Of a DNA stretch of 64,000 nucleotides, positions 22,514 through 59,803 are shown in pieces. Position 1 is the first letter of the stretch, and each line of letters starts with the position of its first letter. This DNA comes from an uncultured Paracoccaceae bacterium (GTDB taxonomy: Bacteria; Pseudomonadota; Alphaproteobacteria; Rhodobacterales; Rhodobacteraceae). A program made the position numbers and the translations under genes. The stretch is from assembly GCA_913061275.1 (NCBI GenBank), contig CAJXSR010000010.1, forward strand, positions 1 to 64,000, read 5' to 3'. The notes beneath the pieces were generated by a model that saw nothing but the letters and a program-made list of their open reading frames with translations, did no database searches and was not told where the DNA came from.

Positions 22514-24157
22514 ATGGCACGATATATTTTCATTACAGGCGGCGTTGTTTCATCCCTAGGCAAGGGCCTTGCCTCTGCAGCATTAGGTGCCCTTTTACAA
22601 GCGCGCGGTTATTCGGTTCGTCTGCGCAAACTTGACCCCTACCTGAACGTCGATCCTGGCACCATGTCGCCGTTTGAACACGGTGAAGTTTTTGTCACCG
22701 ATGACGGTGCCGAAACCGACCTAGACCTTGGCCATTATGAACGTTTCACAGGTGTCGCCGCACGCCAAACCGATTCCATATCGTCAGGCCGCGTTTACAC
22801 CACCGTTTTGGAAAAAGAACGCCGTGGTGACTATTTGGGTAAAACCATCCAAGTAATCCCACATGTCACCAACGAGATCAAAGATTTCATCAATATTGGT
22901 GATGATGAAGTTGATTTTATGCTGTGCGAAATCGGCGGCACTGTGGGCGACATCGAAGGCTTGCCATTCTTCGAGTCTATCCGCCAATTCAGCCAAGACA
23001 AACCGCGCGGCCAATGCATATTCATGCACCTAACCCTGTTGCCTTATCTAAAAGCCAGCGGAGAGTTGAAAACAAAACCCACCCAACACTCAGTCAAAGA
23101 ACTGCGTTCAATCGGCATCGCACCTGATATTCTGGTCTGCCGTTCTGAACGTGATATTCCTGAAAAAGAACGCGCAAAACTGGCCCTGTTTTGCAACGTG
23201 CGTCCCGACAGTGTTATCCCTGCATATGATCTAGAAACCATCTACGACGCACCCCTTGCCTACCACAAAGCGGGCATGGACCAAGCCGTGCTTGACGCAT
23301 TTGGCATCTCACCCGCCCCAAAACCTGACCTAAGCGTTTGGAAAGATGTATCCGACCGCATCCACCACCCTGATGGTGAAGTGAAAATAGCCGTTGTCGG
23401 CAAGTACACCCAGTTGGAGGACGCCTATAAATCCATCGGTGAGGCTTTAACCCACGGTGGCATGTTCAACCGCGTCAAAGTCAAAACCGAATGGATTGAC
23501 GCCGAAATATTTGAAAACGGCGATGCCGCCCCCCGCTTAGAAGCCTATGATGCAATCTTAGTGCCGGGTGGCTTTGGCGAACGCGGTACAGAGGGCAAGA
23601 TTAAAGCGGCGCAATTCGCCCGTGAACGCAAAATACCCTATCTGGGCATATGCCTAGGCATGCAAATGGCCGTGATTGAAGCGGCCCGTAATCTGGCCGG
23701 GCTATCAGATGCAGGTTCAGAAGAGTTTGACCATGAAGCTGGTGAAAAACGTTTTACACCAGTGGTTTACCATCTAAAAGAATGGGTTGAAGGCAACCGC
23801 ACAGTCGCCCGTGCTGTCACGGATGACAAAGGCGGCACCATGCGCTTGGGCGCCTATAACGCCACCCTGACCGAAGGCTCAAAAGTGGCCGAAGTTTACG
23901 GCAACACCGCCATTTCAGAACGCCACCGTCACCGCTATGAGGTCGATATAAAATACCGCGAAAAACTGGAAAAATGCGGGTTAATCTTTTCAGGCATGTC
24001 ACCAGACGGCAAATTGCCCGAAATTGTCGAAGCCACCGACCACCCGTGGTACATCGGCGTACAATTCCACCCCGAACTAAAATCAAAACCGTTTGATCCG
24101 CATCCACTGTTTCGGGACTTTGTAAAGGCTGCACTGGAACAATCTAGGTTGGTGTAG
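22514..24157 (+). CDS. pyrG: CTP synthase
   Basis: A 547-residue enzyme that aminates UTP to CTP. The N-terminal synthetase domain (1-265) starts [17 protein letters not shown] and has [17 protein letters not shown]. The C-terminal glutamine amidotransferase domain carries the nucleophile Cys in [11 protein letters not shown] and the His-Glu pair in [10 protein letters not shown]. The gene is intact and of normal length. Its last 23 codons are matched by a diverged second copy about 3.2 kb downstream (27290-27361), which marks the far end of an inserted cassette. Confidence 0.97.
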
Positions 24158-24264: not shown

Positions 24265-24741
24265 TTACTGGGCTTTGAAATTCAGCGGCACTGCGGTTTG
24301 CGCTACACTGATGCTAACGACCGGCAGGCCTTTCTTTATCCAACCCGCCCCTTTGGATGATCCCATCATCCCTTCTGAAACATCAACAAAGTCGTTTATG
24401 TTGTTTTGTGCCAGTATTTTCATGATATAAGCAGTACGACCGCCCGTAGCACAGATGATCGCGATGGTTTTGTCTGGGTTGTTCTGAATAATAGATTGCA
24501 GGTTCTGGCCGAAATCAGCCTTGTGCATACTGACGGGCCAGGCCCCCTTGGCAACGCCCGTGTCCGCCCATTCCTGTTCGGTTCGAATGTCCAACATCAA
24601 GGCAGTGCCGTCTTCAATTTTTGTCTGCGCCTGCTCAACACTCCATAGGCTGTCAGCCGCTTGTGCCCTTACCGCAGTCCCGAAATACAGCGCCAACACC
24701 ACGAATACTATGGTAATATTATATAAAACTCTCATATTCAT
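24265..24741 (-). CDS. Exported rhodanese-domain protein
   Basis: A 158-residue protein with an N-terminal signal peptide (1-29, ending AQAA) and one rhodanese domain. The active-site loop is IICATGGRTAYI with Cys97, and the domain also shows MLDIRTEQEWADTGVAKGAWPV. Such proteins transfer sulfane sulfur or bind thiol compounds in the periplasm. The gene is convergent with pyrG and divergent from the amidotransferase gene, inside the segment bounded by pyrG and the pyrG tail. A second, cytosolic rhodanese occurs in the gcvP cassettes. Confidence 0.85.
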   Translation of the reverse strand: MNMRVLYNITIVFVVLALYFGTAVRAQAADSLWSVEQAQTKIEDGTALMLDIRTEQEWADTGVAKGAWPVSMHKADFGQNLQSIIQNNPDKTIAIICATGGRTAYIMKILAQNNINDFVDVSEGMMGSSKGAGWIKKGLPVVSISVAQTAVPLNFKAQ

Positions 24742-24927
24742 ATCCTTGCTTATGTTAGCAATAAGCCCAGCCTAGCCGTAGGTCAATTCTGAACACCATC
24801 AGGAACGTTTCACAATACTGTTACTATACAGAGAATTATCGACGCCAAAACCTGTGACAAGCATTGACCAACCCCATATCAAATCGCACAAGGAAACTAT
24901 CAATAGCAACGTGATTAGGAATGAAAC

Positions 24928-25659
24928 ATGCCCAACCCGTTTAATGTGGCAATATTAGTCTGTGATGATCTGTCCCAAGAAAACGCTGATAAATTTGGCT
25001 CGCTTTCAAAACGTTTCTCAGATTTGCTTTACCCTGCATCTGACCGGTACAAATTCACCCCCTATGCCTCACATGCAGGGCACCTGCCAAAATCCCCAGA
25101 TAGATATGACGGTTACCTCATTACTGGCAGCAGTGCCGATGCATTTTCTGATCTTGATTGGGTGCTGTCATTGGGCAACTTTATTGCCAAAGCCGCAAAA
25201 CTACGCCCCATCGTCGGGGTATGCTTTGGCCATCAATTATTACACCACAAACTAGGCGGCCATGTCGCCCGCGCACCTTATGGATGGCGCATCGGCACAC
25301 AATCATACAGCATTAAAGATTGCCCAGATTTCATAGGTACCAGTGCGGATAATTTTGACCTACTCGCATCGCATCAAGATCAGGTTCTATCCCCCGCACC
25401 AAACAGCAAAATCCTTGCCTATTCCCCCACATGCCCTGTTGCAATGACAACGATTGACGACAATATATTTACCATACAACCGCACCCCGAATTCACCCCG
25501 CAAATAGCAGCATCCCTTTATGAATGCCGCCAAGAACGACTTGGCAAGGAACTGTTTACAACGGCTATGGCATCACTGAACCAACCCCTGTCTGACAACT
25601 TAGTCGCAAGCTGGATCACATCTTTTTTCCTTAATCATCACACCCAAAAGCAAAGATAA
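24928..25659 (+). CDS. Class I glutamine amidotransferase (GMP-synthase-like)
   Basis: A 243-residue stand-alone amidotransferase or gamma-glutamyl hydrolase. The nucleophile is Cys99 in PIVGVCFGHQLL and the His-Glu dyad is in QPHPEFTP near residue 188. It resembles the protein at 34133-34834 in both the active site and the GWRIGxxxY segment, so the two are paralogues. It ends 5 bp before the histidine ammonia-lyase-like gene, implying an operon for nitrogen or amino-acid use. The exact substrate cannot be told; a glutamyl-amide hydrolase is as likely as glutaminase. Confidence 0.85.
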   Translation: MPNPFNVAILVCDDLSQENADKFGSLSKRFSDLLYPASDRYKFTPYASHAGHLPKSPDRYDGYLITGSSADAFSDLDWVLSLGNFIAKAAKLRPIVGVCFGHQLLHHKLGGHVARAPYGWRIGTQSYSIKDCPDFIGTSADNFDLLASHQDQVLSPAPNSKILAYSPTCPVAMTTIDDNIFTIQPHPEFTPQIAASLYECRQERLGKELFTTAMASLNQPLSDNLVASWITSFFLNHHTQKQR

Positions 25660-25664
25660 CCCAT

Positions 25665-27283
25665 ATGACATCCCCCCTTATTTTAAGTGCCAAAGGCATC
25701 AGCATTGCAAATGTTATCGAAGTTGCCCGTAATAACCGCCCCGTACAGCTTTCAGATGAATTGGTCAAAAACCTGCAAGCGACCAAAGCCTATATTAACG
25801 ACAACTGGTTAAAGGATGATGCCCCGTTGATATATTCACTCAACACAGGGGTCGGTGCCTTCAAAGACCAACGCGTTAGCGTCAGTGACATCACACAATA
25901 CCAACGCAACATGATCTTGTCACATGCAACTGGTATCGGGCCCAGCTTACCGGCAGAAACCGTGCGCGCCATACTATTGCTGCGCCTGAACGCCTTCACC
26001 GCAGATGTTTCTGGCATCTCAGCCGAGCTTGCCACCCGCTTCACCCAGTTCCTAAACGCAGGGCTTACACCTGTCGTACCTACCAAAGGTTCTGTTGGTG
26101 CCTCGGGTGATCTGGCACCACTCGCCCATTTAGCAGGCGCCATTTGCGGTTATGAACAGGCTGAAATTGACTATAAAGGCCAACGCTACCCAGCCCCAGA
26201 GGCCATAAAACTAGCAGGCTTACCTGCCGACATTCCACTGTTTGCCAAAGATGCCTCTGCCTTACTGAACGGCTCAACCGTATCTTTAGCCATTGCTACC
26301 CTCGCCGTTTTTGACGCCGAAAACCTTGTGCAACACGCAGACCTGTCACTTGCCTTGTCGCTTGAAGCGATGCGCGGTGAAAAAGATGCTTTTGATCCCG
26401 CCCTACACGCCACACGCCCCCATAAGGGCCAGATTGTTTGCGCCGAAAACATCCTGAAACTCATCGGCACATCCCAGCGCATGACCACAAAATCACGCGA
26501 CATAGTATTCCCGTCGGAAAACCGCGCCACAGGCACAAAAGGGCCAGAGCGTGTGCAAGACCCCTATTCAATGCGCTGCGCCCCACAGGTTCAAGGTGCG
26601 GCTCGTGATGCCATTGCTTATGCCAAAGGTATAATTGAGGTTGAAGTTAACTCAGCCACCGACAACCCGTTAATCTTAAAAGAACAAACAGGTCGCCGCG
26701 CCATATCGGGTGGGCATTTTCACGGCCAGTATGTAGCACAGGCAATGGATTTTCTGGCCATAGCCCTTACCGATCTTGCCTCTATATGTGAACGCCGCGT
26801 CGCCCGCCTGATCGACCCGAATATGAGCTTTGGTCTGGCCCGCAATCTTGCCTCTGGCATTCCGGGGCTCAACACAGGCTATGCCACCGTGCAATGCTCA
26901 CTGTCGGCCTTGTGATGGAAAATCGCACCTTATCAGCACCCGGATCGGTTGACAGCATTCCTGGCAAAGGCAACGCCGAAGATCATGTGTCAAACTCTAC
27001 TTGGTGTGCGCGCAAAGCCATGAATGTGGTCGAAAACACCCGTGCGGTTATATCAGGCGAAATCCTGATCGCCTGCCAAGCCCTGTCCAGCGTTGCCGAT
27101 ATTTCCACAGACTATCCAGTGGCTGACAGCACACAGAACATCCTGAACACAATCCGCAAATCCATCCCCTACCGCGACCAAGGCGATGTATGGTACGCGA
27201 TTGATATGGAAAACGCAGAGCAGCTGCTAATGCAAGGTGCCTATCTTAACGCAGTTGCCGCATCAGGCATTACCATAGAATAG
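25665..27283 (+). pseudogene. hutH: Histidine/aromatic ammonia-lyase gene split by a frameshift
   Basis: The first frame (25665-26915, 416 codons) has a HutH-like N-terminus (YSLNTGVGAF, ILSHATG) and the MIO-forming Ala146-Ser147-Gly148 in GSVGASGDLAPL. It stops soon after NTGYATVQC. The rest of the enzyme, from about VMENRTLSAPGSVDSIPG through NAEDHVS to the C-terminus ITIE, continues in another frame to 27283. One missing base near 26911-26913 (GGCCTTGTGATGG) restores a single protein of about 539 residues. The catalytic Glu of the NAEDHVS motif is in the second frame, so the first product alone should be inactive. The Ser-His-Ala segment favours histidine over phenylalanine as the original substrate. 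It may be a true mutation or a sequencing error; no homopolymer is at the site. Confidence 0.88.
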
Positions 27284-27361
27284 TTACCAAAATCCTTCGG
27301 CCCACATCCATTGTTTCGGGGTTTTGTGAAAGCAGCGGTGGAACAAGGTCGGTTGGTATAA
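27284..27361 (+). pseudogene. Duplicated 3' tail of pyrG (CTP synthase C-terminus)
   Basis: Directly after, and in frame with, the ammonia-lyase stop codon the DNA reads LPKSFGPHPLFRGFVKAAVE and ends QGRLV-stop. The intact pyrG ends [19 protein letters not shown], then QSRLV-stop. By my hand count 53 of 72 bases and 18 of 23 residues agree, and most differences are at third codon positions, so this is a tail from a diverged functional pyrG rather than a recent copy. It has no start of its own and is not expected to be functional. It marks the right end of the segment carrying rhodanese, amidotransferase and ammonia-lyase. Confidence 0.88.
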
Positions 27362-27579: not shown

Positions 27580-28917
27580 ATGTGGGATGCCGTTCTTCTA
27601 CTTCTTGAAACCTACTCAGCAGAACTGGGAAGTGTTGGTATTATTAGCGGTGCTTTATTTGCATTTTGGGGCAAAATAAAATCTATTCTGGGCTTCACCC
27701 CCAAGCCGCAACAGGTTGAGGTAACAAACCCGCCCCCTGCAATAGCCCAACCAACCGAAGTAATCGTCAATGTTGACAATGCGCCGCCTAAAGAAGCCAT
27801 GACAACAATGACCCTCGACCAATACGAAAGCCGCCTCGCCACCAAAATCACCGAAGCCGAAGCCAACCTAAAAACTGCCCACGACGCCGAAAAAACCCAA
27901 CTCCAACAAAAAATCGACGAACTGCGCAAACGTGCTGCCAACCCAGAACAAGCCCTTGCAGAAGCCAAAGCCACCATAGCCAAACTCGAACATGCCCTAA
28001 CCCGCGAAGGCAACAACACTGACATTGCAGATGCCCGAATGGCAGAAGCCCGCGAAGCCCTTGAAGCAGGCGATTTTTCCGTCGCCGATGATATATTCGC
28101 CGAAATCGAAGCCCGCGAACAGCTTGCCGTTGAACGCACCGCACGCGCGGCCTTTGCCCGTGGTGAAATCGCCGCACAGGACATCCGTTGGGCAGATGCC
28201 GCCAAACACTACGCCCGTGCGGCCGCACTTCACCCAACCTATGCTCACCTGTATACTGCCCACGAATTCACATTGCGTAACGGTGACTACGCAAAGGCAA
28301 TCGCCCTTGGCACAGAACTGTTAAAACTTGCCAAAGCCGAATTCGGTGACACCCACAAGAAATACGCAAGTGCATTGAACTTACACGCGGCTACGCTAAA
28401 GACCACAGGCAACTACGATCTGGCAGAGCCGCTTCTTAAGCAAGCCATCGAGATCGGCAAACAGACCCTTGGCGAAAACCATCCCGACTACGCAATCCGC
28501 CTTAACAACCTCGCGGCGCTATACGAGGCCACAGGCAAATACGATCTGGCAGAGCCGCTTTATAAGCAAGCCATAAAGATCGACAAACAGACCCTTGGCG
28601 AAAACCATCCCAACTATGCAATCCGCCTTAACAACCTCGCGGGGCTATACCAGGCCATAGGCAAATACGATTTGGCAGAGCCGCTTTATAAGCAAGCCAT
28701 TAAGATCGACAAACAGACCCTTGGCGAAAACCACCCCGACTATGCAACCCGCCTCAACAACCTCGCGGCGCTATACGAGACCACAGGTAAATACGATCAT
28801 GCAGAGCCACTTTATAATCAAGCCTTCAGCATTTTTGACGCCAGTCTTGGCCCCGATCACCCCAGCACAAAAACCGTCAAAGCCAATTACCAAGATTTCC
28901 TAAAAAACCGCCCCTAG
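27580..28917 (+). CDS. Membrane-anchored TPR protein (kinesin-light-chain-like repeats)
   Basis: A 445-residue protein with one membrane segment (about 13-35, GSVGIISGALFAFWGKIKSIL), a Pro-rich linker, a long alpha-helical/coiled-coil stretch (about 75-150) and TPR repeats from about 155. The last repeats are 42-residue units of the TPR_10/12 type (NNLAALYEATGKYDLAEPLY, KQAIKIDKQTLGENHPDY) and are nearly identical to each other. This type often works as a peptide-binding scaffold, sometimes linked to NTPase signalling proteins, none of which is nearby. The ribosome site is weak. The target is unknown. Confidence 0.85.
   Translation: MWDAVLLLLETYSAELGSVGIISGALFAFWGKIKSILGFTPKPQQVEVTNPPPAIAQPTEVIVNVDNAPPKEAMTTMTLDQYESRLATKITEAEANLKTAHDAEKTQLQQKIDELRKRAANPEQALAEAKATIAKLEHALTREGNNTDIADARMAEAREALEAGDFSVADDIFAEIEAREQLAVERTARAAFARGEIAAQDIRWADAAKHYARAAALHPTYAHLYTAHEFTLRNGDYAKAIALGTELLKLAKAEFGDTHKKYASALNLHAATLKTTGNYDLAEPLLKQAIEIGKQTLGENHPDYAIRLNNLAALYEATGKYDLAEPLYKQAIKIDKQTLGENHPNYAIRLNNLAGLYQAIGKYDLAEPLYKQAIKIDKQTLGENHPDYATRLNNLAALYETTGKYDHAEPLYNQAFSIFDASLGPDHPSTKTVKANYQDFLKNRP
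28405..28830 (+). repeat. 126-bp tandem coding repeats in the TPR gene
   Basis: Three full units begin at 28405, 28531 and 28657, with a partial fourth from 28783. The period is 126 bp (42 codons). Long stretches such as GACAAACAGACCCTTGGCG are identical at DNA level, including third codon positions, so the repeats are recent duplications or are kept alike by recombination. Copy number could change without breaking the frame. Confidence 0.9.
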
Positions 28918-50229: not shown

Positions 50230-51420
50230 TTAATTGGGAAAGTGACGCAACCACACTTCGGTTCGGGTTTGGTCGCGCGCTTCATAGTCGCGGATAGCCT
50301 GCTCTAGGTCGCCAACATCTGATGTTTTGTTATCAGCACCTATTTCGGTCAGGCGCATGGTATACCAAGCAGTTATACCGCCTTCTGGTGCTTCCGAGAA
50401 TCTGGGGAAGGCGGGCTCTGGCGTCTGATCCGCCATCCAGAGATTGGGACGTGCCGGTTCAAGGGCAAGTGCGCGTGCTAGCCCCACGACATCAACTACA
50501 CCGCTGGCCACAGCTTCTTCGGCCTGCGCACGTGTTTTGAAACCGCCGGTTAGCATCAGGGGCTTGGTTGTTAACGCGCGGGCACTTTTTGCGAATTCAA
50601 TGAAATACGGGCCCCGTCCTGCCCCGTCATTAGCTGATTTAGCACCGGGGAAATATGTACCACCGCTGATGTCGATAAGGTCAACCGAAGAACCGTCAAG
50701 AGCTGCCACAACCTTTAGTGCTTCTTCCGCATCTAACCCGCCCACAAGCTGGTCAGATGAATTGAGCTTGACGGCGATTGGAAAATTCGGGCCGACAGCG
50801 GCGCGTGTTGCCTCAATGCTAGCGAGCAATAATTTCATACGGTTGGCGATTGTTCCGCCGTATTCATCACCGCGCTTGTTGAACAGCGGTGACAAAAACT
50901 GGCTAAGCAGAAAACCATGTGCTGCGTGAATTTGCACACCACTAAAGCCCGCTTGTTGTGCTAACTTGGCTGTCCTTGCAAATTCCAAGGGTATTTGGTG
51001 AATTTCATCTTTCGTTAACGCGGCACAGCTAAGACCCAGAAGATCAAGCGCACTTGGCCCTTTTGGATTGCTTGTTGGTTGGTAAGCAAGTGCGCCAGCA
51101 TGGCCTAGTTGCAGCCAAAGCAAAGTATCGTTTTCACTACCTCGTTTGGCAAGTTCGCGAAACTGTGCAAGGTCAGAAGCCGCGTTAAGTACCAGATTGC
51201 CGGGTTTTTCGGCGTAGTTCGAGCTGCCCTGCACCTCTCCAATAATTGATACCGCCAACCCACCTTCAGCCCAACGCTGATACAGCCTGATCTGTTCGGA
51301 TGTTGGATGCCCGGTTCCATCACTTAAAGAATCCGACATTGCCGACTTCGCAATCCGGTTTTTCAAGACGACGCCACAAGGTAGCTGTAGTGTTTTAAAC
51401 AGAGTTCCATGTTGTTGCAT
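50230..51420 (-). CDS. Old-yellow-enzyme family NADH:flavin oxidoreductase
   Basis: A 396-residue FMN-binding (beta-alpha)8 barrel without the C-terminal FAD/NADH domains of dienoyl-CoA reductases. The segments LKNRIAKSAMSDSLSDG, GVQIHAAHGFLLSQFLSP and NKRGDEYGGTIANRM hold the FMN and substrate His residues. It reduces activated double bonds or is an NADH oxidase; the substrate is unknown. It is the last gene on this strand after the gcvP-linked cassettes, 120 bp from the first decayed gcvP tail. Confidence 0.9.
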   Translation of the reverse strand: MQQHGTLFKTLQLPCGVVLKNRIAKSAMSDSLSDGTGHPTSEQIRLYQRWAEGGLAVSIIGEVQGSSNYAEKPGNLVLNAASDLAQFRELAKRGSENDTLLWLQLGHAGALAYQPTSNPKGPSALDLLGLSCAALTKDEIHQIPLEFARTAKLAQQAGFSGVQIHAAHGFLLSQFLSPLFNKRGDEYGGTIANRMKLLLASIEATRAAVGPNFPIAVKLNSSDQLVGGLDAEEALKVVAALDGSSVDLIDISGGTYFPGAKSANDGAGRGPYFIEFAKSARALTTKPLMLTGGFKTRAQAEEAVASGVVDVVGLARALALEPARPNLWMADQTPEPAFPRFSEAPEGGITAWYTMRLTEIGADNKTSDVGDLEQAIRDYEARDQTRTEVWLRHFPN

Positions 51421-51540
51421 TTGAGCGTTCCCGACTAAATTCTTGCAGCTTTCATTAGATCCTTGAAAACTCTAGGAACCGTAATTGAAACCCGTCTTTG
51501 ACACAAAGGCAATCGCGTGCGCAGGATTGCTTAAATCTAC

Positions 51541-51669
51541 TTAATCCTCGTAGTTTTCAATCGGCAGGCACGAACAGATCATGTGGAGATCACCATATGC
51601 ATTGTCCACACGGGTCAAGTTTCGGGTAGGCGTTGCACACACGTTGACTGAAACGCCCTATGCTTACTA
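51541..51669 (-). pseudogene. Decayed 3' tail of gcvP, copy 1
   Basis: The reverse strand reads [19 protein letters not shown], then IENYED-stop, matching the end of the intact GcvP ([19 protein letters not shown], then MEDYMDDE). A run of 26 bases (51588-51613) is identical to gcvP 54402-54427. Upstream of the match it shares another stretch of about 55 bp with copy 2 but not with gcvP (GGCGTTGCACAC on the plus strand). A 2-base insertion and a 1-base loss relative to copy 2 break the frame there. The GGATTGC just past the stop is also shared by all three copies. It lies 24 bp after the rhodanese stop. Confidence 0.85.
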
Positions 51670-51692
51670 CAGGGCCAGTATGACCCTAAGCA

Positions 51693-52091
51693 CTACGATC
51701 CTGTAGCTAGCCCAGCTTCAAGTAACGCCGCCATTCCGCCCTCAACATATGATACGTTGGTAAAACCCATCTCAGTCAGTAGGTTCGCGGCAGATGCGCC
51801 CCGATAGCAAGGGGATGAACCGCAGGTGGTAAGGATACGACGTGAATGATCTTGAAGTTCGGGTTCGCGATACTCTTCGTAAATTACAAGGCAGCCTTTC
51901 CATGCGAGTGATCTACCAGGTGCATTAATAGCCCCAATGCCCAAGCCAGTCACCTCTACTTCTTCTGCATCTCTTACATCCACCAACAAAGCATTCGGGT
52001 TATCCTTTAATTCCTGCAACGCTTCATCGACACTGACAGAATGGGCTTGCGCCATTGCGTCATCAGCCAATTCAAAAAATGTTTTACCCAT
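51693..52091 (-). CDS. Cytosolic rhodanese-domain protein
   Basis: A protein of about 132 residues with one rhodanese domain: ALLVDVRDAEEVEVTGLGIG and the active-site loop TTCGSSPCYRGASAA, where one Cys sits at the usual nucleophile place and another five residues later. There is no signal peptide. The start at 52091 has AGGAGG six bases upstream; 29 earlier in-frame codons are ignored. It is part of the cassette between the two gcvP tails, downstream of the EamA transporter. The sulfur donor is unknown. Confidence 0.85.
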   Translation of the reverse strand: MGKTFFELADDAMAQAHSVSVDEALQELKDNPNALLVDVRDAEEVEVTGLGIGAINAPGRSLAWKGCLVIYEEYREPELQDHSRRILTTCGSSPCYRGASAANLLTEMGFTNVSYVEGGMAALLEAGLATGS

Positions 52092-52156
52092 GATTACCTC
52101 CTGTGTCCTTGTTTCCTGTAGCAAAGATAGCATTAAATCATGATTTAGGCACCAAA

Positions 52157-52320
52157 TTAAAATGGCAGCTCTTCGCACATTTCAGACATCGGCCCAATTT
52201 TGCAATCTGAACGGAATGCAAAACTGCCATTCACCATTGGCGATCCAACTGATGCTTCTGGGCCATACCGAACATCTTGGTTGGTATCGTCACATTCGGA
52301 TCAACCTCGTAATTGGCAAA
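52157..52320 (-). pseudogene. Coding-like remnant of an unidentified gene
   Basis: Between the EamA and rhodanese genes the reverse strand has two short overlapping readable stretches in different frames, FANYEVDPNVTIPTKMFG and then VRYGPEASVGSPMVNGSF continuing to ELPF-stop at 52157. Joined by one frameshift they look like the C-terminal part of a real protein. I do not recognise it. It has no clear start or ribosome site. Confidence 0.4.
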
Positions 52321-52322
52321 TT

Positions 52323-53240
52323 TCACACCCTACTTACAGGTGGGGGCTTTCGGCGAGCACCGGACACTGCATTGCCAGCGATAGCCGTTAAAAGCAAGGC
52401 GCCGCCGATGAGGGTTCGCAAGGAAGCGTCCTCTCCTAAGAACAACCAAACCCAGAAAGGGCCAAGCATCACTTCGGCAAGGGACAGTAACGTCAATTCT
52501 GCGGCTGGGAGTGTGCGCGAACCTAATGTATAAAGGACTAACCCTGCACCCACTTGAAACACACCCATGCCCATAGCGATGCCCCCGTCACGTACAGACA
52601 GCACGAAAGACAGGCCCATAAACAGACAAATGACAGATGTGATGATGATGGCGAACAGTCCGGATAGGAATACCGCCGGAAGCATCTCGCCTGATTTGCC
52701 CCAACGCAGTGCGACGGTGAATACCGAAAACCCAAACGCTGAACCAAGTGCCGCTAAAGTGCCGTCAACCGCGCCGCCAGAGGTTTGGCCGAAGACCATG
52801 ATCGCAATGGCACCAATGGCCACGAAAATAGCGACCCAAGTGGTGGGACGCACGCGTTCTCGTAACACAATCCAGCCCAGAATAGCGGTCATGAAGGGTG
52901 CCGTTGCAAAGAGTAAAAGCGCGTTGGCAACTGGGATGACTTGGATGGAATAAATACCACCTGAATAGGCTGCTACCAAAGCAAGGCCCGCGATCACAGA
53001 GGGCAAACCAGAGCGGCGTGCCTGTGCGAATGGGCTTTCGGTGCTGCGCAAGCGGATGACAACATAAAGAAATGCGCTAAGCGCAATGGAGCGGTATAGT
53101 AATATCTGCCAAACGCTGGCTTCTTCGATCAGCCGAATACCAAGGCCCACCGTCGACCACAGCACGCCTGCGGCAAACACAAAGATCAACCCACGACGGT
53201 GGCTGATATTGTACGCAGAGCTGTAAGTGATGCTGGACAT
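52323..53240 (-). CDS. EamA/DMT-family transporter
   Basis: A 305-residue protein with ten predicted membrane helices in two EamA repeats (about 15-150 and 160-295; GVLWSTVGLGIRLIEEAS at the first repeat and LGSRTLPAAELTLLSLAE in the second). These carriers commonly export amino acids or metabolites. It is in the cassette between the two gcvP tails, followed by the rhodanese. The substrate is unknown; an amino acid would fit the region. Confidence 0.88.
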   Translation of the reverse strand: MSSITYSSAYNISHRRGLIFVFAAGVLWSTVGLGIRLIEEASVWQILLYRSIALSAFLYVVIRLRSTESPFAQARRSGLPSVIAGLALVAAYSGGIYSIQVIPVANALLLFATAPFMTAILGWIVLRERVRPTTWVAIFVAIGAIAIMVFGQTSGGAVDGTLAALGSAFGFSVFTVALRWGKSGEMLPAVFLSGLFAIIITSVICLFMGLSFVLSVRDGGIAMGMGVFQVGAGLVLYTLGSRTLPAAELTLLSLAEVMLGPFWVWLFLGEDASLRTLIGGALLLTAIAGNAVSGARRKPPPVSRV

Positions 53241-53370
53241 GTCTTGGCCTCAGTGAAGTAATCACTCTTTCTCTAACGTACCTAAGATATTGTGTGCCGA
53301 CCGTTTGCGACCAGCTAATGTCGTGGGATTACTTTGAAGTTGCCGCTCACGGGATTGCCAAGTTCAGCGA

Positions 53371-53506
53371 TTATTCGTCGTCGATGTGCTCTTCCATCGG
53401 CGGGCATAAACAGATCCAGTTGCCGTCGCCATATGCATTGTCCATGCGGGTCAAGTTTTTGGTTAGGCGTTGCACACGTGGGCTGAAACCCACCTTATGC
53501 TTGCTA
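53371..53506 (-). pseudogene. Decayed 3' tail of gcvP, copy 2
   Basis: The reverse strand reads NLTRMDNAYGDGNWICLCPP, then MEEHIDDE-stop, against [20 protein letters not shown] in the intact gene. The frame is open back to the racemase stop codon (TAG at 53506-53504), where the segment starts. The first 55 bp are shared with copy 1 and not with gcvP, and include a small hairpin GTGGG-TTTCAG-CCCAC. Bases after the stop (GGGATTGCCA) also match the sequence behind gcvP. It is a non-functional tail that separates the racemase from the EamA-rhodanese cassette. Confidence 0.85.
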
Positions 53507-54220
53507 TCCCAGTGCGAATTCGACAGCCGCGTCGCAATGAAGTTTGGCCGTATTGAACATTGGAAAATCAGCTATGTCGGTTTGGTTGATAAGAAGAAAA
53601 ATCTCTGTACACCCTAAGATCAATCCTTGTGCACCTTCATCGACGCGCATTCGTTCTGCGATCTCGATATAGCGGCGTTTGGATTCTGTCGAAATGATGC
53701 CCTTGACCAATTCATTAAAGATAATCCGATCAATATCTTCTTGCTCTTGTTCGTTCGGGCTGATTGTTTCTACGCCAAAGTGGTCCTGAAATCGGTTCTT
53801 GAGGTAGTTCATTTGCATTACGGGCCGCGTACCAAACAGAGCGACCTTCTTAAGTTTTGCATCTCTCATCGCCAGACCAGTAGGGTCGGCAATGTGGATC
53901 ACTGGAACATCAGCATGAGACATCAAACCCTCTAGAGGCTTATGGAGTGTGTTAGAAACGCAAAGAATTACGTCTGCGCCACCTGCGATCAAGCTATCAA
54001 TTTTGATACGCATATAAGCTTCTAATGCGTCCCAATCATCAGTTCGAACGAACGCTTCAATATTACCAAAATTCATTCCAGCAATAAGTGTTTCGGCTAT
54101 TTCCCACCCACCCAGTCGGTCGTTTATGCCATCATTTAGGAATTTATAATACTCACCAGTTGCGATATTTGAACACCCACCAAGGATGCCTATTGTTTTT
54201 TGCTTCAAAGGGCGGTTCAT
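53504..54220 (-). CDS. Aspartate/glutamate racemase family protein
   Basis: A 238-residue protein of the Asp/Glu racemase superfamily (KTIGILGGCSNIATGEYY at the N-terminus). The second catalytic site is conserved as LILGCTEI (about Cys198). The first reads ILCVSNTLHK, with the Cys (Cys87) three residues before the Asn-Thr rather than at the usual two, so activity may differ from true racemases. It lies directly behind gcvP, 128 bp away on the same strand, and its stop abuts the gcvP tail copy 2. Amino-acid isomerisation fits the region. Confidence 0.85.
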   Translation of the reverse strand: MNRPLKQKTIGILGGCSNIATGEYYKFLNDGINDRLGGWEIAETLIAGMNFGNIEAFVRTDDWDALEAYMRIKIDSLIAGGADVILCVSNTLHKPLEGLMSHADVPVIHIADPTGLAMRDAKLKKVALFGTRPVMQMNYLKNRFQDHFGVETISPNEQEQEDIDRIIFNELVKGIISTESKRRYIEIAERMRVDEGAQGLILGCTEIFLLINQTDIADFPMFNTAKLHCDAAVEFALG

Positions 54221-54348
54221 ACATTTATTTTCCTAAAAGGTTCAAAAGCAAGCCTTGGTCACGGGGCATTAATTAGTCGACATGGGTTCAAAGCCGCCTT
54301 TGATATATCAGCAACCCCACCTTTCAGTGGGATTGCCATGTTCAACTC

Positions 54349-57192
54349 TTATTCATCGTCCATATAGTCTTCCATCGGTGGACAGCTACAGATCAAATTA
54401 CGATCACCATATGCATTGTCCACACGGTTTACCGGTGACCAGTATTTATCCACCTTGAACGATCCTGGAGGGAAACAACCCTGCTCACGGGTATAGGGCC
54501 TGTCCCAGTCGCCCACCAAGTCGCGCATGGTGTGGGGTGCGTTGCATAAAGGATTGTTATCCTTTGGCCATTTGCCGTCTTCTATTTCTTGTGCTTCAGC
54601 GCGAATGGCCAACATGGCATCGCAGAAACGATCCAGTTCTGCCTTTGGTTCTGACTCGGTTGGTTCAACCATCAGCGTGCCGGGCACAGGAAACGACATG
54701 GTTGGTGCGTGAAAGCCGCAATCGACCAACCGCTTGGCGATGTCATCCACGGTGACACCGCAACTGACCTCTAGGGGCCGTGTATCAACGATACATTCAT
54801 GTGCCACCCGCCCGTTTGGGCCGCGATACAGAATTTCATAAGCCCCTTCCAGACGTTTGGCGATGTAGTTGGCATTCAGGATCGCAGACTTGGTTGCCTG
54901 CGTCATGCCATCACCACCCATCATCAGGCAATAGGCCCAAGAAATCGGTAGAATGCTTGGGCTGCCAAAAGGTGCCGCAGAAACTGCACCTTCAACACCG
55001 CCTGTGTGAAAGTGACCCGGCAAGTATTTGATAAGGTGTTCTTTTACACCAATAGGCCCCATACCTGGGCCGCCGCCGCCGTGTGGGATGCAAAAGGTTT
55101 TGTGCAGGTTCAAGTGCGATACATCGCCCCCGATTTGACCCGGTTGCGAAATACCGACCATCGCGTTCATGTTGGCCCCGTCCATATAAACCTGCCCGCC
55201 GTGGTCATGCACGATTTGGCAAACCTCGCGCACGCCTTCCTCAAACACACCGTGGGTGGACGGGTATGTAATCATACAAGCTGCAAGATTTTCAGAATGC
55301 AGTTCCGCCTTGGCGCGGAAATCTTCAATATCAATGTCGCCATTGACCGATGATTTCACCACAACAACCTTATAATCCACCATATGTGCAGAGGCAGGAT
55401 TGGTGCCATGTGCAGATGTCGGGATCAAACAGATATTGCGGTGACCTTCACCGTTTGCCTTATGATAAGCGGAAATTGTCAGCAGGCCCGCATATTCACC
55501 TTGCGCACCTGAATTCGGTTGCATGGAAATGCCGTCATAGCCAGTGATTTCACATAGTTTCTTAGATAGGTCATTGATAAGTAACGTATAGCCAGCTGCC
55601 TGATTGGCAGGTGCATAGGGGTGCATATTGGCAAAGCCAAACCATGTGACAGGCATCATTTCCGCCGCTGAATTCAGCTTCATCGTACAAGACCCTAACG
55701 GGATCATGGCGCGATCTAATGCTAGGTCGCGATCAGCCAGACGGCGCATATAGCGGGTCATTTCTGCCTCGGAGCGGTTCATGTGGAAAATCGGATGGGT
55801 CATGTAGGCACTTGTGCGCGCCATACCTGTCGGCAAACGATGTTCAGCTTCTGTTGGATAAGCATCTCTGGCCAAACCGAAGGCCCGCCATATCGCGTGC
55901 AGGGTTTTTTCTGCGGTCGACTCGTCCACCGACATGGCAACTTGTGTTTTTCCAACCGCGCGGATGTTCACGTCTTCCATGCGCGCTGCCTGTATCACCA
56001 CAGATTGCAATGGGCCTACATCAACTGTGATGGTGTCGAAAAATTCAACAGGATCAATGCTAAAACCCATCTTTTCAATGCCGCTCGCAAGCAGTGCTGT
56101 CATCATATGAACACGTTGCGCTATCGCTTTCAGGCCCTCAGGCCCGTGAAATACACCGTACATAGAGGCCATCACAGCCAACAAAGCTTGTGCTGTACAC
56201 ACGTTTGATGTGGCCTTTTCACGGCGGATATGCTGTTCACGGGTTTGCAGTGACAAACGGTACGCCTGATTACCACGCGCGTCGATTGACACACCGATCA
56301 AACGACCCGGCATAGACCGTTTATGGGCCTCTTTTGTTGCCATATAGGCCGCGTGCGGGCCGCCGTACCCCATAGGCACACCAAAGCGTTGGGTAGACCC
56401 CACGGCAATATCTGCACCCATCTGGCCCGGGTCTTTCAACAAGGTCAGGGCCAATGGATCAGCGGAAATAACTGCCGCTGCTTTATTTTCATGCAAAGCC
56501 GCGATTATGTCTGTGAAATCACGCACATGCCCGTTGGTACCAGGGTACTGGAAAATCGCCCCGAATACGGCTGTTGCATCCAGATCATCGGGTGAACCCA
56601 CGATCACCTCTATACCCAAGGGCTGTGCGCGCGTCTGCATTACCGCGATATTTTGCGGATGGCAGTTTTCATCGACAAAAAAGGTCTTTGATTTAGACTT
56701 AGCGATCCGTTGGCCCATGGTCATCGCTTCGGCACAGGCCGTTGCTTCATCCAGAAGTGATGCATTGGCAATTTCCATGCCTGTAAGGTCAATAATCATG
56801 GTTTGAAAGTTTAACAATGCTTCCAAACGCCCCTGACTAATTTCTGGCTGATACGGTGTATAGGCCGTGTACCATGCGGGATTTTCCAGAATATTGCGCT
56901 GAATTGCAGGCGGTGTCACCGTGCCGTAATAACCCTGCCCGATCATAGAGGTCACGACCCTGTTCATTGACGCCACATCACGCATATAGGCCAGCATTTC
57001 GCGTTCTGACATTGGTGGCCAGTTCAGCGGCTCTGATTGGCGAATGTTTTTGGGCACCGTCTGATCCATCAGATCATCTAATGAAGTTGCCCCAACAACT
57101 TTCAACATTGCGTCTATTTCAGTCGCAGAGGGGCCGATATGGCGACGGTTGGCAAAGTCGTAGGGTTTATAGTCGGTCAGGTTATACGGCAT
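54349..57192 (-). CDS. gcvP: Glycine dehydrogenase (decarboxylating), P-protein
   Basis: A 947-residue full-length P-protein. The PLP lysine is in [20 protein letters not shown], and the N-terminal half ([16 protein letters not shown]) and the C-terminal half ([18 protein letters not shown]) form the usual two-domain pseudo-dimer. It decarboxylates glycine and loads the aminomethyl group onto GcvH lipoate. It is last in gcvT-gcvH-gcvP, 122 bp after gcvH. The 3' end up to the stop is repeated in two decayed copies downstream (53371, 51541). Expression should follow the glycine riboswitch. Confidence 0.97.
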
Positions 57193-59167: not shown

Positions 59168-59677
59168 TCAGTATCCACAATCTGTGTAATTAGACGCAAG
59201 ACATTTGGCGACTAGAGCATCTACTTTTTCCTGATGACTTGGGTTAGAGGCATGCTTTGCTATCATGTCTATATTCTCTGTTATAGCGCGTTCGTCACCG
59301 TTCATCGCAGATATAGCCATCCACATACTCGCTAACACTGGATCACTTTCAACAGCGTAACTAATGGTGTAGTTTTTAGATACATAATACTGACCAAACG
59401 CATTACCTTGCGTGGCAGTTTTGACGAAATATTTATGAGCTGTTTTAGGCTCCCAAATGCCCAGCTCGCCTCGGTCATATATTAGACCTAGCACATTGGT
59501 GGCTTCTATATCACCTGCGTCTGACATCTCTTTCCAAGTGGATATTGGAATCTTATCCGTAAATACACCTGTGACGTATCTATCTAATGTGTCTTTTACT
59601 TCACCAGCGTTAGCATAGGTTGTTGCGATTAACCCTGCAAGAAGAGCGGCGGGAAACATTTTCAGTTCAGTAAACAT
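59168..59677 (-). CDS. Exported Sel1/TPR-like small protein
   Basis: A protein of about 169 residues from the ATG at 59677 (GGAA upstream) with a signal peptide ending TYANA. The mature part has Sel1-like helical pairs (GDIEATNVLGLIYDRGELGI, then HKYFVKTATQGNAFGQYYVS, and ASMWMAISAMNG). Such repeats bind proteins in the periplasm. An in-frame start 18 codons earlier is possible but adds a hydrophilic stretch before the signal. The function is unknown. Confidence 0.65.
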   Translation of the reverse strand: MFTELKMFPAALLAGLIATTYANAGEVKDTLDRYVTGVFTDKIPISTWKEMSDAGDIEATNVLGLIYDRGELGIWEPKTAHKYFVKTATQGNAFGQYYVSKNYTISYAVESDPVLASMWMAISAMNGDERAITENIDMIAKHASNPSHQEKVDALVAKCLASNYTDCGY

Positions 59678-59803
59678 AGTCGCGTTCCGTTTTAAGGTTT
59701 CGATACAGAATATATATTTAGCCCTTTTCATATATCAAGAGGCTTACATATAGTTAACTTGTGCATATTAAATTGAGGAAGCAGCAATCATAAATATCCA
59801 CAC

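Follow-up and report, generated by a model that had tools for sequence, protein, structure and literature searches.

Cargo blocks and displaced gene ends behind gcvP

In a 64,000-nt stretch of contig CAJXSR010000010.1 from an uncultured Paracoccaceae bacterium (hereafter the window), two short copies of the 3′ end of gcvP lie downstream of gcvP itself, each behind a small block of cargo genes. The host is an Amylibacter-like member of the Rhodobacteraceae, with a source genome of 3.39 Mb (completeness 99.99, contamination 0.25). Open reading frames (ORFs), Pfam domains and matches to the gene end gave the following order along the gcvP strand: gcvP, racemase, tail 1, EamA transporter plus rhodanese, tail 2 and oxidoreductase (Table 1), as described in an initial annotation made from the sequence alone. 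The spacing is 978 bp for the racemase block (block A) and 1,836 bp for the EamA plus rhodanese block (block B). A further block in the window is closed by a tail of pyrG, and sequence matches confirmed the earlier count of three cargo blocks (two at gcvP, one at pyrG), each ending in a 3′ tail of its host gene.

The last 75 nt of gcvP had two other ungapped matches in the window, at 56/75 and 55/75 positions, with the next best at 36 and the best match in 20 mononucleotide-shuffled windows at 39. In tblastn searches, the gcvP tails matched over 27 aa at 67% and over 25 aa at 64%. Each tail agreed with the present gcvP end at 44/57 positions, and the gcvP ends of relatives agreed with it at 39 to 54 of 57 positions (18 scorable of 20 sequences). 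Tail 1 and tail 2 are not equal copies. In the relatives G001, G006 and G024, the gcvP end is short and reads ...YED-stop.

In G001, gcvP adjoins the same oxidoreductase that is found after tail 2. Window positions 50233-51617, which hold tail 2 and the oxidoreductase, aligned with the gcvP end and oxidoreductase of G001 at 85.6% identity over 1,390 aligned positions; the alignment started at the core, the joint region inside gcvP, and no earlier point of gcvP was aligned. The 2.8 kb separating the gcvP end from tail 2 are absent from G001, which lacks both blocks together. Since gcvP stands directly before the oxidoreductase in this relative, the tails are to be read as displaced gene ends and the blocks as insertions, and the alignment marks tail 2 as the older gcvP end. 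At the level of sequence comparison, this demonstrates insertion with displaced gene ends at gcvP. The old end of the host gene was thus correctly placed at the far side of the cargo, with tail 2 adjoining the oxidoreductase as the G001 gcvP end does. The empty site that the initial annotation proposed to look for in relatives was found in G001, and its stated counter-case, stepwise gene duplication and decay in place, was not seen at gcvP.

The cargo is scattered and rare in the genus, which counts in favour of the integrative elements proposed below. A relative of the racemase (37% identity) was found in one of 32 other genus genomes at E 1e-20, and a relative of the rhodanese (91%) in one of 32 at E 1e-12, the latter in G024 and without EamA. 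In that genome, locus L187 (G024:C28, 9.1-9.6 kb) holds a 483-bp rhodanese stretch, most of the gene, that is 90% identical to window positions 51703-52184; by eye it stands behind hisI and before gluQ, with no EamA and no visible tail.

Table 1. Features of the gcvP and pyrG loci in window coordinates.
Feature	Coordinates	Strand	Basis or remark
gcvP, host gene, 947 aa	54349..57192	-	present 3′ end ...DYMDDE-stop
Joint/core region inside gcvP, CCGTGTGGACAATGCATATGG	54407..54427	-	~75 nt before gene end; same point as both tails and the G006 fork
Block A cargo, Asp/Glu/hydantoin racemase family protein	53504..54220	-	Pfam PF01177, 1.2e-24
Arm A, right end of block A	53450..53506	-	not gcvP-like; arm B alignment starts at the racemase stop codon
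Tail 1, displaced gcvP 3′ end	53371..53449	-	...EEHIDDE-stop; sequence match to gcvP end
Block B cargo, EamA transporter	52323..53240	-	Pfam PF00892, 6.7e-23
Block B cargo, rhodanese-domain protein	51693..52178	-	Pfam PF00581, 2.3e-11
Arm B, right end of block B	51614..51669	-	likeness to arm A
Tail 2, displaced older gcvP 3′ end	51541..51613	-	...ENYED-stop; alignment with G001 gcvP end and oxidoreductase
FMN oxidoreductase (OYE family), right neighbour	50230..51420	-	relatives stand behind gcvP in G001 and G017
pyrG, second host gene	22514..24157	+	
pyrG block cargo: rhodanese (opposite strand), class-I glutamine amidotransferase, aromatic amino acid (histidine-type) ammonia-lyase	24265..27280	+	Pfam
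Displaced pyrG 3′ tail, then TPR gene that stands near pyrG in relatives	27288..27360	+	

A common joint and arm at gcvP

The two gcvP tails start at one and the same gcvP position. In the 60 nt before the core, arm A and arm B were identical at 49/57 positions, with a local score of 34 compared with at most 15 in 5,000 shuffles. Against gcvP the arms scored 7 and 6 (shuffle mean 6.7), i.e. they are unlike gcvP. The likeness between the arms stopped before the racemase coding end, where 3,116 of 5,000 and 1,372 of 2,000 shuffles were as good; a reading of the arms as what remains of a second racemase gene was rejected on this ground. On inspection by eye, integron attC and Xer/dif sites were likewise set aside as counterparts of arm and core. 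The repeated use of one site, as initially suggested, is supported by the shared joint position and arm.

A third event at the same point may be recorded in G006. Over 99 nt, as far as GTGGACAATGC, its contigs C7 and C26 (L036 and L032) are identical. There they fork: the following 54 nt contain 3 differences, and beyond gcvP the DNA is unrelated. The 99-nt identity looks like an assembler overlap, and both variants were probably present in one sampled population. Beyond the fork, C7 carries cargo with an AbiJ-type gene, and C26 carries a different 265-aa gene followed by hisB, 1.55 kb behind gcvP.

We tentatively favour a reading in which the gcvP blocks are passive, integrase-less elements resembling cis-mobilizable elements (CIMEs), placed site-specifically and in tandem by a recombinase provided in trans. 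Two such small elements would have inserted successively at one site ~75 nt before the gcvP end, each supplying a gcvP 3′ end of its own and so restoring the gene, with the previous end pushed downstream behind a conserved arm of ~60 nt. As for CIMEs, a site-specific recombinase would act in trans on the core inside the gcvP end, and the elements would move as circles. A joint and an arm common to two blocks in tandem, together with the G006 fork, favour a site-specific recombinase acting on such a core, and it is because of the common joint and arm that we place this route above capture by homology, discussed below.

Several results weigh against this reading. The arms (49/57) are little better conserved than the coding tails (39/52), a difference so small that conservation alone is no proof of arm function, and the inverted repeat in the core is weak (5/7 by eye). 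The arm pattern had no match in the other 32 of the 33 genus genomes, although it also missed arm B in this genome. Of 394 family genomes searched with the arm DNA, all but this one (393) lacked a match, and both arms were recovered here. Short gcvP tails occurred in one of the 360 family genomes with a gcvP match (tails below ~20 aa would escape). Phage_integrase matches were present in all 33 genus genomes, 14 of them in this genome, but none lay on this contig among the 12 listed of those 14; nor, among the genus matches listed, did any lie within ~40 kb of gcvP on the same contig, many contigs being short. A recombinase was also absent among 10 window proteins scanned with Pfam, in agreement with the earlier remark that no integrase was visible. 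Contig C26 of G006 was ruled out as an empty gcvP-hisB site by the 265-aa gene between gcvP and hisB. Finally, similar shapes occur at pyrG, at rimP and in Rhizobium without this site or arm.

Outside this genome, the arms had only weak matches in a set of 232 loci, and in viral contigs both the arm pattern and the pyrG end pattern had 0 matches. Carriage of gcvP tails by phages or plasmids was considered and rejected on the records examined. One viral contig matched the gcvP end pattern, and it holds a whole gcvP. This contig (L233, IMGVR_UViG_3300020469_000011; 146.5 kb) encodes a full-length glycine dehydrogenase of 955 aa, and cyanophage records are also annotated with glycine dehydrogenase. 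The gcvP end was matched in 15 phage and 135 plasmid records; two records from the 15 phage and 25 plasmid rows listed were examined, namely H14, which has a whole gcvP, and H18, in which an unlisted gene stands beside gcvT and gcvH. Pieces of gcvP at contig edges in G319 (C10, C6 and C12; L222-L224) were rejected as tails and left out of the tail count, since the three contigs overlap by 123 nt. In G319, gcvH-gcvP lies on a contig of 3.4 kb; its end shares exactly 123 nt with two other contigs and stops at the terminator, and the pattern is probably a collapsed gcvH-gcvP repeat from a recent duplication. Second gcvP matches in G158, G242, G324 and G401 were likewise not tails, each genome having two long matches (G324 with a weak third, E 0.0046).

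Displaced ends at pyrG, rimP and Rhizobium gcvP, and capture by homology

The pyrG tail matched pyrG at 75% over 73 nt (23 aa at 78%). In G012, 460 nt separate the end of the pyrG alignment from the start of the TPR-region alignment. In this genome the latter starts 3,698 nt after pyrG, with cargo and tail in the interval. The pyrG-TPR arrangement in G001 and G044 is like that in G012. Judged by these relatives, the reading of the pyrG block as an insertion is well supported. The DNA flanking the pyrG tail is unlike the gcvP arms (954 and 1,939 of 3,000 shuffles scored as high), and the joint lies ~5 nt behind what is, by eye, the stop codon of the last cargo gene. A rhodanese is present at both loci, as the initial annotation had pointed out, but the two proteins are distant (34% over 50 aa) and, seen from the host gene, their genes point in opposite directions. 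The pyrG block is a separate event of the same shape, with no shared arm or core, and a recombinase common to gcvP and pyrG was rejected for want of a common arm (cores compared by eye). Of the earlier interpretation, serial accretion at one point and the existence of relatives without the blocks were supported, and a single route with pyrG was not: the 'same logic' applies to the shape of the loci rather than to a common enzyme.

The pyrG cargo itself includes an ammonia-lyase gene that looks broken (window 25665-27283). Its ORF at 25665-26915 covers profile positions 2-386 of 466, and the C-terminal part, located by eye in another frame, ends ~5 nt before the pyrG tail. A TPR protein gene at window 28400-28824 contains 126-nt repeats that are 89-92% identical.

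We scanned 471,666 bp of this genome by comparing the C- and N-terminal 40 aa of 423 ORFs with 6 kb on either side, paralogues being judged by eye. Tails downstream in the same orientation numbered four (one at pyrG, two at gcvP and one Hint-type paralogue pair), compared with one upstream in the same orientation and two downstream in the opposite orientation. Heads were found upstream in the same orientation four times, downstream in the same orientation twice and upstream in the opposite orientation once. The sole further case judged real is a 5′ end, that of rimP, and a general 3′-end rule was not upheld. At this locus (L197; G000:C1:100001-120000, 6.6-9.4 kb), a rimP head in two stretches (114 nt at 88.6% and 72 nt at 93.1%) precedes rimP(-nusA) by ~2.4 kb, and a gene for a ScfR-type regulator stands in between. 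The arrangement mirrors that at gcvP, but no clean empty site emerged; DNA further upstream is common with G006, and the stretch just behind the head resembles upstream DNA in G006.

A second scan covered 67 loci from other Alphaproteobacteria (1,321,162 bp, 953 ORFs), 13 of 80 loci having been dropped as shorter than 12 kb. It returned 14 rows of paralogues and 8 pieces, of which 2 were Rhizobium gcvP tails and 6 were low-complexity by eye. Because these loci were picked around gcvP and the window was picked for its tails, neither scan is a fair test of a bias towards gcvP or towards 3′ ends. Among the 80 loci (73 of which held at least 1 kb), pieces of gcvP downstream of gcvP were found only in L120, L109 and L096. 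In the Rhizobium locus L120, gcvP is followed by an SDR gene, a TetR gene and then a 134-nt gcvP tail. This tail and the DNA downstream of it matched the gcvP end and downstream DNA of L124 at 93.4% over 1,205 bp and, on this alignment, L124 is the empty site for the Rhizobium block. In a comparison of 10 loci, L109 and L096 shared this cargo, but their gcvP pieces were shorter or partial, L116, L122 and L124 had gcvP beside that downstream DNA, and 5 shared the gcvP end only. The Rhizobium joint differs from the Amylibacter-like one. Indeed, the joints at Rhizobium gcvP, pyrG, rimP and this gcvP all differ, and they coincide for the two gcvP blocks here.

These cases, together with the missing enzyme, weigh for homology-anchored capture, which we regard as a close, if still doubtful, rival. 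DNA of a relative, linear or circular, carrying the conserved gene end and its neighbours would recombine through the gene, and its other end would join illegitimately inside the recipient copy, leaving the old end behind. Cargo could then stack or be swapped through gcvP and arm-tail homology on both sides, and the arms would be alike by descent from one founding joint. The head at the 5′ end of rimP with its intervening regulator and the Rhizobium block with its different joint and empty site fit capture at least as well as a recombinase. Further points in its favour are that the pyrG tail flank lacks the arm, that no integrase was found nearby among the matches listed, that the arm did not recur in the other genomes searched and that a rhodanese block occurs alone elsewhere in G024. 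However, two joints at one position with the same arm and unrelated genes would require a founding joint, cargo turnover and further accretion, and the G006 fork is a sequence change at that same point. The support from rimP is also reduced by the lack of a shown empty site and by the likeness to G006 upstream DNA, which make this locus more complex.

A broader reading appears rather unlikely, namely that small foreign blocks dock at the ends of conserved housekeeping genes in Alphaproteobacteria (3′ for gcvP and pyrG, 5′ for rimP). They would enter by a general route that needs no integrase and is driven by homology at the end; the gene would receive a new end, and the old one would stay behind as a scar. 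If it were true, such scars would record gene-by-gene acquisition.

It is improbable that the two gcvP blocks arose by tandem duplication and decay in place, i.e. that one insertion was doubled by unequal crossing-over between the gcvP end and a tail and that the copies then lost different genes. Direct repeats favour unequal exchange, and a single founding event would explain the shared arm and joint. Nevertheless, no remnant of the racemase end was found in block B, tail 1 and tail 2 are unlike beyond their stop codons (873 of 1,000 shuffles as good), and the racemase and the rhodanese each have a single match in this genome (limits E 1e-20 and E 1e-12; EamA left out). The successive blocks do not hold homologous cargo. 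An assembly artefact is hardly credible: the record may be a metagenome-assembled genome, as two close relatives are, but all parts lie within one 111,666-bp contig, the tails are only ~75% like gcvP and so are no collapsed or misjoined identical repeats, and the completeness and contamination values also argue against it.

Known passive elements and the surroundings of gcvP

Passive elements stacked in tandem at the 3′ ends of genes are already known (PMC7563491, PMC3146451). The CIMEs of Streptococcus salivarius are described as lying in tandem at the 3′ ends of rpmG, rpsI, fda and rplL, with sizes of 1.2-13 kb (PMC7563491). The likeness to the gcvP blocks lies in tandem blocks at the 3′ ends of protein genes, with att sites kept, no integrase or transfer genes and cargo that is partly metabolic. 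In agreement, the gcvP blocks lie between direct repeats of the target gene end and share a conserved arm on the element side, and both blocks are missing together from the unoccupied site in G001. No integrase, relaxase or conjugation domain was found by Pfam in the three gcvP cargo proteins (racemase, EamA and rhodanese; smaller ORFs left out). In contrast, the CIMEs described there stand in tandem with, and derive from, integrative and conjugative or integrative and mobilizable elements (ICEs/IMEs), whereas no ICE/IME partner with an integrase at the same site was found for the gcvP blocks in the genus and family searches of genomes with the arm and gcvP tails. The target also differs, being gcvP here, and one of the blocks is below 1 kb.

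The ssrA islands of Dehalococcoides are similarly reported as serial islands behind one single-copy gene, bounded by repeats of its 3′ end; 15 lack an integration module and 16/31 have one, with serine recombinases (PMC3146451). They differ in that the target is a tmRNA gene, the repeat is 20 bp and many carry the module. In type VI secretion and Rhs loci, serial displacement has been proposed to proceed via homology-facilitated illegitimate recombination (PMC5361080). There too, DNA enters behind a conserved anchor and the old part is displaced downstream and stacks, but immunity genes and 3′ parts of genes are displaced, rather than short housekeeping-gene ends. In the Methylophilaceae, additive genomic islands are marked by the recurring last 20 bp of the target gene and carry metabolic cargo (PMC10872708). 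The targets given there are tRNA genes, and tycheposons (4-200 kb) carry a tyrosine recombinase; here, no tRNA genes were found in the window and no recombinase among the scanned cargo proteins.

In Photorhabdus and Xenorhabdus, gcvP is among the protein genes listed as integration sites for plasticity regions (PMC3091717), and we do not claim that gcvP elements are unreported. To our knowledge, four points are new: gcvP as a target in this family, the very small size of the blocks, the lack of a partner integrase and the Rhizobium parallel. By what route single metabolic genes come into marine genomes when no mobile element is visible is an open problem, and displaced gene ends are readable scars with direction and order, marking the entry point, the old end and the earlier state of the site. 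Since gcvP has received blocks in two lineages that are far apart, the Amylibacter-like one and Rhizobium, and the DNA behind it varies among relatives, including once an abortive-infection gene, a genome-wide survey of such scars is directly possible. On the other side of the locus, a small gene upstream of gcvT (window 59168-59731) has a relative that stands, by eye, downstream of gcvP in G024:C5 (L033), which indicates rearrangement around the gcv operon.

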